The notes under the pieces: model-generated
The model's input: only the letters and a program-made list of their open reading frames with translations
Databases searched by the model: none
Told to the model about the DNA's origin: nothing
Shown here: piece by piece, positions 60,203-62,940 of the stretch
Layout of the letters: each line of letters opens with the position of its first letter
Numbering within the stretch: the first letter of the stretch is position 1
Assembly (NCBI RefSeq): GCF_003574965.1
Contig: NZ_CP032317.1
Location: 248,001 to 312,000 of the forward strand
Reading direction: 5' to 3'
DNA: 64,000 nucleotides
Source of the DNA: Hymenobacter oligotrophus
GTDB taxonomy: Bacteria; Bacteroidota; Bacteroidia; Cytophagales; Hymenobacteraceae
Program-made: the position numbers and the translations under genes

Positions 60203-60724
60203 ATGAATGCTACTTCCACGGCCAAAGCCGTTTTCCTCGACCGCGACGGCGTGCTCAATGCCGAAATCGGCCATTACGTGTGGCGCCTCGATGAATTTGT
60301 GGTGCTGCCCGATGTGCCCGCCGCCTTGCAGCGCCTGCACGCCGCCGGCTACTTGCTGATAGTGGTAACCAACCAGGCCGGTATTGCCAAGGGCCTCTAT
60401 ACCTCTGCCGAGGTAGCCGCCTGTCATCACAAACTGCAAGAGGCCTGCGGCGGCGTAATCGATGCGTTTTATTACGCCCCTGGGCATCCGTCGGTGTCGG
60501 AGTCGCTGATGCGCAAGCCCGATTCGCTGATGCTCGAAAAAGCCATGGCACGCTTTGGCCTCGATGCGGCCCAGTGCTGGATGGTAGGCGACCGGCCCCG
60601 CGATTTACAAGCTGCCGCCAAAGTGGGCGTGCGCGGCATATTGGTAGGCGAGGAGGCGCTGGTACCCGATGCCCCGCTTGTGCCCAACTTGGCCGCTGCT
60701 GCCAACCTGATTTTGCGCTCCTAG
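60203..60724 (+). CDS. gmhB: D-glycero-beta-D-manno-heptose 1,7-bisphosphate 7-phosphatase
   Basis: 173 residues from ATG 60203. HAD-superfamily motif I is FLDRDGVLNAEIGHYV with the nucleophile Asp. VVTNQAGIAKGLY is motif II and MVGDRPRDLQAAAKVG motif III/IV. The Cys/His zinc loop of E. coli GmhB is partly replaced (YYAPGHPSVSESLMRKPDSL). It removes the 7-phosphate in ADP-heptose synthesis, upstream of hldD. A histidinol-phosphatase role is possible for this family, but no his genes are near. A 19-bp hairpin follows. Confidence 0.88.
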   Translation: MNATSTAKAVFLDRDGVLNAEIGHYVWRLDEFVVLPDVPAALQRLHAAGYLLIVVTNQAGIAKGLYTSAEVAACHHKLQEACGGVIDAFYYAPGHPSVSESLMRKPDSLMLEKAMARFGLDAAQCWMVGDRPRDLQAAAKVGVRGILVGEEALVPDAPLVPNLAAAANLILRS

Positions 60725-60741: not shown

Positions 60742-60788
60742 CACAGCCCCAGCGCACAAGCTGGTTAGGCTTGTGCGCTGGGGCTGTG
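60742..60788. terminator. 19-bp hairpin terminator, bidirectional
   Basis: 60742-60760 and 60770-60788 are perfect complements with a 9-base loop, between gmhB (+) and the micro-lipoprotein (-). Confidence 0.8.
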
Positions 60789-60805: not shown

Positions 60806-60961
60806 TTATTGGCGCTCGGCCGGGGCAGCTGCCGCGCTGGCCGTTACGGCCGAGGCCTGCTGCGTAGCGGGCTTTTGCTGGGTGTAGGCCGGGCACTTGG
60901 TGCTGCACGAACCCAGGCCAGCGGCCAAGGCCAATACGCCCAGAACTGCAATCTTTTTCAT
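60806..60961 (-). CDS. 51-residue micro-lipoprotein (paralogue A)
   Basis: From ATG 60961: MKKIAVLGVLALAAGLGSCS, a full lipoprotein signal with lipobox LGSC, then a mature part of about 32 residues holding KCPAY and ending AAPAERQ. It is short enough to be missed by length-filtered annotation. It shares the CPAY block, an ATQ-A patch and the identical PAERQ-stop tail with the gene at 61184, so they are paralogues by duplication. Terminators flank each gene. Function unknown; it should be a small surface or periplasmic lipopeptide. Confidence 0.75.
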   Translation of the reverse strand: MKKIAVLGVLALAAGLGSCSTKCPAYTQQKPATQQASAVTASAAAAPAERQ

Positions 60962-61123
60962 GTAAATATGCAATTATGCGTGAGGGTTACGCAGGGTAAA
61001 AGGTTCGGTACTAACGGTGTTCGGCTGAGGTTTAGTTTGAGCTGAACCGAAAAAATTTCAAACCGCCCTTGTACCGTTAGCCAAACCCCCAAACCGCACT
61101 TGCAAGACCGATTCAGGTATAAA

Positions 61124-61167
61124 AAATCCGGCCGCGGCGCCCCAAGCGGGGCGCCGCGGCCGGATTT
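61124..61167 (-). terminator. 20-bp hairpin with U-run
   Basis: 61124-61143 and 61148-61167 are perfect complements with a 4-base loop; A61121-61126 gives a U-run on the - strand. Ends the micro-lipoprotein gene at 61184. Confidence 0.9.
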
Positions 61168-61183
61168 CGTACGCGCAGGGTGC

Positions 61184-61330
61184 TTATTGGCGCTCGGCCG
61201 GTGCAGCCGCCGAGGCTACTACCTCTGCTTTCTGGGTAGCGGCTTTGCCGTATGCCGGGCACGACTGCTTGTTGCAAGCACCGAGGCCCAAAGTGGCAGC
61301 GGCAGTCAGAAGAAGTAGACCTTTTTTCAT
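61184..61330 (-). CDS. 48-residue micro-lipoprotein (paralogue B)
   Basis: From ATG 61330: MKKGLLLLTAAATLGLGACN, lipobox LGAC, then SCPAYGKAATQKAEVVASAA and the end APAERQ. Its own promoter is clear (TTG-21-TATGTTTG, - strand 61359-61390) and a strong terminator follows, so it is an independent transcription unit. It is the best-supported of the very small genes here. Two Cys remain in the mature protein beyond the lipidated one in paralogue B's CNKQSC region or one in A, which could bind metal or pair. Function unknown. Confidence 0.82.
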   Translation of the reverse strand: MKKGLLLLTAAATLGLGACNKQSCPAYGKAATQKAEVVASAAAPAERQ

Positions 61331-61358: not shown

Positions 61359-61390
61359 CAAACATACTGCCGCCGTGGGCCTTACTCCAA
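61359..61390 (-). promoter_or_regulatory. promoter of the 48-residue lipoprotein gene
   Basis: - strand TTG (61390-61388), 21-base spacer, TATGTTTG (61366-61359); identical spacing to the three rRNA promoters. Confidence 0.7.
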
Positions 61391-61542: not shown

Positions 61543-62940
61543 CTAGGCGTAGCCCAAGATGCGCATCATCGATTCGGGGTCTTGCTCCGGGGCAAACTCC
61601 CAGTCGCGCACGCTGCCGTCGGCGTCGCGGTCGAGGATGACGTGCTTGGGGGCCGGAATCAGGCAGTGCTTGATGCCGCCGTAGCCCGAGAGCTGCTCCT
61701 GGTACGCGCCCGTGTGGAAAAAGCCCACGTACAGCGGTTTCTCCTGGCCGCGCTCCGGCAAAAACACTTGGTAAATGTGCTTTTCGGCGTTGTAGTAGTC
61801 CTGCGAGTCGCAGGTAAGGCCGCCCAGCTGAATTTTCTTGTAGTTACGCTCCCAGCCGTTGAGGGCCAGCATGATAAAGCGTTGGTTGAGGGCCCAGGTA
61901 TCGGGCAGGTTCGTGATAAACGAGCCGTCAATCATGTACCACAATTCCTTGTCGTTCTGCAGCTTTTCGTCGAGGATGTTGTAGATGTGCGCCCCCGATT
62001 CGCCCACCGTGAAAATGCCGAACTCGGTGAAAATGTGTGGCTCGGGCACGCCTTCTTCGCGGCAAATGCGCTGAATGGTGCGTAGCACTTCCTCAATCAT
62101 GTACGGGTAGTCGTACTCGGGTTGAATGGAGGTTTGGATGGGCAGGCCGCCGCCGATGTCGATGGTGTGCAGCGTGGGGCACACCTTGCGCAGCTCGCAG
62201 TACTTGTGCACAAAGCGGCGCAGCTCCGACCAGTAGTAGGAGGTGTCCTTGATGCCCGTGTTGATGAAGTAGTGCAGCATCGTCAGCTCGAAGCGCGGGT
62301 CGTTTTTGATCTGCTCTTCGTACAGCGGAATGGCATCGGCGTAGCGCACGCCCAGGCGCGAGGTGTAAAACTGGAAGCGCGGCTCCTCGTCGGAAGCCAA
62401 ACGAATGCCCAGGTTGGCGCGGGTATCGGCGTGCACGTGCTCCTTGTAGTACTCGATTTCCGACAGGTTATCGAGAATGGGCATGCAGTTCACGAAGCCG
62501 TCGTTCATGAACTCGGTGAGGTAGCGCTTGTACCGCTCGCGCTTAAAGCCGTTGGCGATGATGTACGTCTGCTTGTTGATGCGGCCCTTGCCGTAGAGCG
62601 CGCGCACAATGTGCATGTCGTACCCCGAGGAGGTTTCGATGTGCACGTCGTTTTTCAGGGCTTCCTCCACCACAAAAGCAAAGTGCGAGGCCTTAGTGCA
62701 GTAGCAGTAAGTGTAGCTGCCTTGGTAGTCGATTTTCTCGATGCCCTGCCGAAACCACTGCTTGGCGCGTTGAATGTTTTCGCTGATTTTGGGCAAGTAG
62801 GTAAGGCGCAGCGGCGTACCGTGTTTCCGGATCAAATCCATCAGCGGAATGCCATGAAAGCGCAGCTCGTTGCCCTCGACGGTGAACTCCTGCGAAGGAA
62901 AGTCGAAGGTTTGGCTAATCAGGTCGTGGTATGTATCCAT
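61543..62940 (-). CDS. speA: arginine decarboxylase (fold III PLP enzyme)
   Basis: 465 residues. Alanine-racemase/ODC-type fold: SYTYCYCTKASHFAFVVEEA carries the PLP Lys, ANGFKRERYKRYLTEFMNDG and TIDIGGGLPIQTS (phosphate site) follow, and the Cys of GGLTCDSQDYYNAEKH lies near the substrate site. This is the short Bacteroidota arginine decarboxylase rather than the about 630-residue E. coli SpeA. It makes agmatine, a polyamine precursor. It is divergent from an arginase-family gene (63233). The leader contains a 9-bp inverted repeat and a TATCTTTG box (- strand 63055-63062). A diaminopimelate-decarboxylase role is less likely, given the sequence blocks. Confidence 0.9.
   Translation of the reverse strand: MDTYHDLISQTFDFPSQEFTVEGNELRFHGIPLMDLIRKHGTPLRLTYLPKISENIQRAKQWFRQGIEKIDYQGSYTYCYCTKASHFAFVVEEALKNDVHIETSSGYDMHIVRALYGKGRINKQTYIIANGFKRERYKRYLTEFMNDGFVNCMPILDNLSEIEYYKEHVHADTRANLGIRLASDEEPRFQFYTSRLGVRYADAIPLYEEQIKNDPRFELTMLHYFINTGIKDTSYYWSELRRFVHKYCELRKVCPTLHTIDIGGGLPIQTSIQPEYDYPYMIEEVLRTIQRICREEGVPEPHIFTEFGIFTVGESGAHIYNILDEKLQNDKELWYMIDGSFITNLPDTWALNQRFIMLALNGWERNYKKIQLGGLTCDSQDYYNAEKHIYQVFLPERGQEKPLYVGFFHTGAYQEQLSGYGGIKHCLIPAPKHVILDRDADGSVRDWEFAPEQDPESMMRILGYA

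Follow-up and report, generated by a model that had tools for sequence, protein, structure and literature searches.

Several described envelope systems share traits with the two micro-lipoproteins analyzed here, LP1 and LP2, and with the family to which they belong (LP). The mature part of E. coli LptM (YifL, PF13627), a small outer-membrane lipoprotein, begins CGLKGPLY, and, as in LP, its best-conserved stretch lies beside the lipidated cysteine and its tail is variable. The entericidins EcnA and EcnB (PF08085) are small lipoproteins, 41 and 48 residues long, whose genes stand side by side. As described in the part of the source available, just the first ~10 mature residues of E. coli LptM are resolved, near the lateral gate of LptD, and its N-terminal region is enough for co-purification (PMC12644819), while the accessible text of a second report gives LptM as missing from non-proteobacterial genomes (PMC10567701). 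Within Bacteroidota, short lipoproteins also make up the PG1828 family (NF050142), covered by partly accessible sources (PMC7352132, PMC6706054, PMC11225709). Periplasmic cysteines of the Bacteroidota envelope serve for intermolecular disulfides in the type 9 secretion and gliding apparatus, where they link the barrel proteins SprF and PorG to the lipoprotein GldK according to the available portion of PMC12635249. In the accessible text on the Bacteroidota BAM complex, no LP-like subunit is seen (PMC12578637).

LP differs from each of these systems. It carries a second cysteine that LptM lacks, occurs in Bacteroidota rather than Proteobacteria, and has no known link to LptD; PF13627 recovered E. 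coli LptM (2.6e-8) and none of nine LPs at E <= 10 (one query was off by one letter), and hhalign, in an alignment showing the CGLK of E. coli LptM, paired only the signal peptide plus three further residues, with a probability of 19%. PF08085 recovered EcnA (6.4e-6) and EcnB (4.3e-7) but none of eight LPs at E <= 10. A relation to PG1828 was considered and rejected: LP2 scored 23.5 bits against the 50-bit cut-off of NF050142, a weak match mostly through the signal peptide and low-complexity tail, LP1 was not among the matches, and 5 of 16 members of our A3 set matched at E <= 0.01 (best 2.7e-4); moreover, the 30 better-scoring members examined (L031-L060), most of them repetitive, all lack CPAY. 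NF050142 itself matched 137 of 296 Bacteroidota genomes at E <= 0.001 and passed its cut-off in 12, and weak hits to it say little because many cover just the first 30-50 positions of much longer frames. In SprF/PorG-GldK the cysteine is borne by the barrel proteins (in SprF, by the C-tail), whereas in LP it would be lipid-anchored. These precedents do not make the LP family a member of the LptM or the SprF/PorG-GldK system.

The LP1-LP2 locus

The window analyzed is a 64,000-nucleotide stretch of the Hymenobacter oligotrophus genome (NZ_CP032317.1, positions 248,001 to 312,000). LP1 and LP2 lie in it head to tail between an HAD phosphatase gene and a speA-like gene (Table 1). A sequence-only reading had proposed two adjacent paralogous micro-lipoproteins, and both open reading frames are present with the translations it described, sharing an MKK start, a hydrophobic stretch, a lipobox (read by eye as LGSC and LGAC), a CPAY block and an AERQ end. 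No other CPAY or AERQ-stop peptide occurs in the six frames of the window. Paralogy is borne out by alignment of the mature parts, which scored above 5000 of 5000 shuffles, and of the parts after CPAY, which scored above 4999 of 5000. The AF2 model of LP2 has a helix at residues 3-17, in the signal region, and is otherwise unstructured (mean pLDDT 61.8). Rfam gave no match across the pair, and a search of plasmids gave none.

Table 1. Features of the LP1-LP2 locus and the barrel gene discussed in the text (window coordinates except for the last row)
Feature	Position	Strand	Remarks
HAD phosphatase (GmhB-like by eye)	60203..60724	+	PF00702, PF13242; convergent with LP1; 92% identical to the L088 copy over 173 aa
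Hairpin between LP1 and the convergent HAD gene	60742..60788	.	~20 bp; -49.9 kcal/mol, z -7.66 (76-nt stretch)
LP1, micro-lipoprotein, 51 aa	60806..60961	minus	mature C-STK-CPAY-...-AERQ; 94% identity in genomes G007 and G005
LP2 intrinsic terminator	61121..61166	minus	long GC hairpin then T6; -50.9 kcal/mol, z -7.46 (71-nt stretch)
LP2, micro-lipoprotein, 48 aa	61184..61330	minus	mature C-NKQS-CPAY-...-AERQ
LP2 promoter-like site	61359..61390	minus	TTG (61390-61388), 21 nt, TATGTTTG (61366-61359); presumed Bacteroidota TAnnTTTG type
SpeA-like arginine decarboxylase	61543..62940	minus	PF02784; upstream of LP2, same strand
Small outer-membrane barrel (predicted), ~250 aa	L331:1394-2260; G000:C1:2778396-2779157	minus	beside lipA, osmC and brxC in many loci

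The clear promoter claimed for LP2 was found as a TTG-N21-TATGTTTG site upstream of the gene, matching TAnnTTTG, which we take to be the Bacteroidota-type consensus. Of 161 family genes, 119 have this motif upstream, where shuffles give 24.6 +/- 3.9; it was not found upstream of LP1, where a simple scan gave a 9-of-12 match to an E. coli-type promoter. The same reading had given each gene its own strong terminator. This holds for LP2, with its ~20 bp stem followed by T6, and for LP1 in part: the ~20 bp stem is there, but its LP1-side tail is T-poor and has no T-run. A simple terminator scan reported the LP1 hairpin only as a 6-pair version and missed that of LP2, and its count in the window was near chance (6, against 3.9 +/- 2.4 in shuffles).

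Homologues and unequal substitution rates both speak for real genes under selection. Every genome of the window's family but one (G021) yielded LP, 23 of 24 in all, as a tandem pair in 8 and a single copy in 15, judged from inspected 3-kb loci; locus L088 of this family encodes a protein identical to LP2. By the Nei-Gojobori method, applied to seven orthologue pairs per gene, dN/dS was 0.067-0.330 for LP1 and 0-0.193 for LP2, pointing to purifying selection. Summed over two trios, the C..CPAY block had no non-synonymous differences in LP1 and 4.5 in LP2, all within the second trio, and the tail showed 12 synonymous against 0 non-synonymous differences in LP2 (six pairwise comparisons) and 6 against 6 in LP1; these sums are indications only, because the same sequences are reused. 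A tree of 23 proteins places LP2, with weak support, beside the genes of G003 and G011, each present in single copy. It also weakly suggests that the LP1/LP2 duplication is older than the split of two genera, although one of its 20 inner branches was well supported and G013, an outgroup sequence, was placed inside the LP1 set. Tandem pairs occur in seven family-level groups including the window's (the others at L143 and L156; L146; L157; L161 and L294; L164; L171), so duplication of LP seems to be a repeated event. Pairs were also noted at L188 and L202, and L187 is the same contig as L146.

Spread and conserved core of the family

The best explanation of LP1 and LP2 is that they are this lineage's tandem copies of a widely conserved Bacteroidota micro-lipoprotein. 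We defined the family by a lipobox cysteine, 3-6 residues, and C[PADE]x[YF] or a close variant in a protein of ~35-60 aa, a definition that covers LP1 and LP2. Its core is the lipid cysteine followed after 3-6 residues by C-[P/A/D/E]-x-[Y/F], usually CPAY. Among 163 distinct sequences collected under a motif filter, the core reads CPAY in 136, CAAY in 8, CPAF in 5, CDAY in 4 and otherwise in 10; the mature part spans 14 to 40 residues (median 23) and contains two cysteines in 161 sequences and three in 2. The shortest LP proteins have 35 aa (L063, L066), and the shortest mature peptide, of 14 residues, is CKSKKQCEAYDAKH, from a 37-aa protein at L292:1923.

LP sequences were found in 33 family-level groups, all of one class, a tally that combines 44 opened profile hits, the window's family, genome G082 and syntenic slots. 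The 44 hits came from a core-profile search of 395 genomes of the class; distinct and picked among the best-scoring, all 44 carry the lipid cysteine and C[PAD]x[YF], and they represent 28 groups, while the 382 genomes with a match include many signal-peptide-only hits. Six hits opened outside the class (L078, L079, L081, L082, L084, L086) had no CPAY. Scanning named genomes for the CKSHE subtype matched 212 stretches, of which 189 encode relatives and 80 were kept; all 80 are from metagenome-assembled genomes, labeled Flavobacteriales, Crocinitomicaceae, Vicingaceae, Salibacteraceae, Sphingobacteriaceae or other Bacteroidetes.

Syntenic slots were also read in 16 poorly scoring genomes. Here a candidate needed no more than a lipobox, a hydrophobic stretch and a basic start within a small ORF, and the ORF in question was chosen by eye. 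A lipoprotein with a second cysteine occupied 11 of the 16, with the motifs CPAY, CDAY, CAAY, CEAY, CPKF, CPQF, CPTDTF and CPSAF. These motifs vary at the proline and not at the cysteine, and therefore the second cysteine, not the proline, is the most constant residue. In a second batch of 20 regions 5' of the barrel gene from 19 genomes (four of which have LP elsewhere), 18 had no candidate and one held a partial candidate (G384, CRSRDACPG). The barrel-upstream region of G162 holds a 65-aa lipoprotein-like ORF without a second cysteine.

No member scanned passed a Pfam or NCBIfam cut-off, the weak sub-cut-off Pfam matches being DUF4995 (E 0.02), LPAM_1 and others, and the LP profile matched solved structures at E 0.11 at best. 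Our literature search found no paper naming the family. The surface-export signal, of the C-X-K/Q-(D/E)2 type as defined in the available part of PMC5080379, is absent from all 163 sequences, which have at most one acidic residue at +2 to +6.

Genomic neighborhood

Across the window's family (the window and L088-L097), speA adjoins LP in 10 of 11 loci and the HAD gene in all 11. More widely, the SpeA-like family lies near LP in 13 of 61 laid-out loci, window included, and the HAD family adjoins it in 12 of the 60 others. A protoporphyrinogen-oxidase-like gene, assigned by eye, also lies near the window pair.

A frequent gene order elsewhere is ung / LP / brxC / osmC / outer-membrane barrel / lipA. 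In the 80 named loci, which extend at most 3 kb per side, are in several cases ended by contig ends, and overlap the 61 laid-out loci in 7 cases, tblastn found Ung in 60, the ~250-aa barrel in 46, LipA in 43, OsmC in 37, BrxC in 29 and a BamA-like protein (assigned by eye) in 27; BrxC and OsmC were identified by Pfam. In 25 of those 29 brxC-containing loci LP stops 0-18 bp ahead of the point where the brxC alignment begins, which is operon spacing, and brxC is downstream of LP in 14 of the 61 laid-out loci, within 133 bp in 13 of these. The window's genome has lipA, the barrel gene, osmC and brxC clustered (L331) without LP, with brxC at C1:2779820, about 2.47 Mb along the contig. LP is therefore not dependent on those neighbors. 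We infer that LP originally formed part of the cluster and later moved beside speA and the HAD gene; its retention outside the cluster argues that it acts alone or with something encoded elsewhere.

Neither of two neighbors qualified as an obligatory partner. BrxC was unmatched in 15 of the 40 LP-bearing genomes and matched in 32 of 40 low-scoring ones. The small barrel was missing from 4 of the 40 LP-bearing genomes; it was present in 63 of the 80 genomes overall, and the contrast between 36 of 40 LP-bearing and 27 of 40 low-scoring genomes is not valid because the low-scoring set is impure (11 of 16 inspected hold LP). One barrel member gave no Pfam match at E <= 0.1 and, by sequence, one weak match to solved structures (E 0.0032). 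Its model, with a mean pLDDT of 87.8, is of a small outer-membrane barrel, which we read as 8-stranded and nearest to OmpA/OmpW/OprF/PagL/Ail-type barrels and a Legionella porin, a resemblance that gives no function. GldK was found in 40 of 40 LP-bearing genomes but also in 38 of 40 others, so its co-occurrence is uninformative.

Possible roles of the anchor-proximal cysteine

The two genes are real, and the emphasis moves from the C-terminal tail, where the sequence-only reading had placed it, to the cysteine near the anchor. What the sequences offer is a putative signal peptide carrying a lipobox and, 3-6 residues beyond the lipobox cysteine, a second cysteine with an aromatic residue shortly after it, together with a variable tail and purifying selection. 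Since the constant parts are the lipid cysteine, the second cysteine and the aromatic residue, the simplest mechanism is a short membrane-proximal arm with a thiol contact. We tentatively favor this reading, giving it less than half of our confidence: LP might act as a lipid-anchored cysteine arm facing the periplasm, docking on an outer-membrane or periplasmic partner and probably forming a disulfide with it. Lipidation and sorting would place LP at the outer membrane on its periplasmic side, as the lack of an export signal suggests; the lipid-proximal segment would dock on the partner, and the second cysteine, presumably free, would make a thiol or disulfide contact. The tail, in which a basic residue often stands close to the end, would serve as a spacer, and a tandem pair could supply two variants under separate control. 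Both halves have precedents in the accessible parts of the sources cited above, docking in the N-terminal ten residues of LptM within the LPS translocon and disulfide bonding in SprF/PorG-GldK. Against the cysteine arm stands the finding that no tested neighbor is obligatory, as BrxC and the barrel are absent from 15 and 4 of 40 LP-bearing genomes and the window's genome has the lipA-to-brxC cluster without LP; the near-empty regions 5' of the barrel gene in the second batch of 19 genomes also count against it. The family is kept across many groups of one class as mature peptides of 14-40 residues with a conserved, presumably free cysteine, and is retained although its gene here lies outside the cluster used by many other lineages; the identity of the partner would show whether Bacteroidota hold envelope machines together by lipid-anchored cysteines.

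Docking could also proceed as in LptM, without thiol chemistry, the lipid and a short segment mimicking a lipid substrate or sitting in the hinge of an outer-membrane barrel machine, which might be LptD, BamA or the small barrel whose gene lies close by, and so promoting its assembly. The conserved stretch beside the lipid cysteine and the poorly conserved tail fit this idea, LP1 CSTKCPAY and LptM CGLKGPLY have C-x-x-K-x-P-x-Y in common, and barrel genes are close in many named loci (46 of 80 for the small barrel, 27 for the BamA-like gene). We nevertheless consider it doubtful: neither PF13627 nor hhalign indicates a sequence relation, the most constant LP residue is missing from the start of LptM, and LptM is reported, in the text available, to be missing outside proteobacterial genomes (PMC10567701).

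The operon spacing ahead of brxC in 25 of 29 named brxC loci, the presence of brxC within 133 bp downstream in 13 of 14 laid-out ones, and OsmC in 37 of 80 loci would suit a role for LP in the bacillithiol system, sensing or buffering thiols in the envelope as a thiol-stress partner of bacilliredoxin. Such a role is unlikely, given the distribution of BrxC (unmatched in 15 of 40 LP-bearing and matched in 32 of 40 low-scoring genomes), the distant brxC of the window's genome and the expected cytoplasmic location of BrxC.

A permanent bond is a further variant, and one we regard as decidedly unlikely: LP would be a Bacteroidota-specific, lipid-anchored disulfide tether whose second cysteine, bonded to a cysteine of a periplasmic structure, pins that structure to the outer membrane. 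Candidate targets would be an OmpA-like protein or, within the type 9 secretion and gliding machinery, the GldK/PorK track or ring, and groups such as f20, in which no LP was found near brxC in the three genomes inspected (G062, G094, G105), would use other cysteine donors.

The sequence-only reading had taken the conserved extreme C-terminus for a functional peptide, and the family at large does not bear this out. AERQ ends just 9 of the 163 distinct sequences, all from the window's genus or one neighboring genus of the same family, and in the sister trio LP2 ends in QARQ and one LP1 in NRL. A basic residue does occur among the last five positions in 140 of 163, and therefore a loose C-terminal feature may exist. 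That the tail is the active part, for instance as a released or partner-binding peptide, would accord with this and with the 12 to 0 differences of the LP2 tail; with an LP1 tail at 6 to 6, so few AERQ ends, and tails that vary between families in length and sequence, we hold it to be very unlikely.

An entericidin-like toxin/antidote pair would explain why two small lipoproteins are encoded side by side, like ecnA and ecnB in E. coli, and why tandem pairs recur in other family-level groups, but is highly improbable with PF08085 matching none of eight LPs, a single copy in 15 of the 23 LP-bearing genomes of the window's family (3-kb locus), and a strongly conserved core common to both copies. 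Equally hard to credit is a metal or haem ligand formed by Cys-Pro, which we take to be haem-regulatory-like, or by a Cys/His cluster: most members have the CP dipeptide, many CKSHE-type members have a histidine three residues before the second cysteine, and a protoporphyrinogen-oxidase-like gene is near the window pair, but CAAY, CDAY and CEAY members have another residue in place of the proline, and LP1, LP2 and others lack the histidine.

In the tandem pairs of group f106 (L143:6740, L156:6343), the first LP ends with a longer basic tail, KKKLYxKDRDxFGNKR, absent from the other members read.
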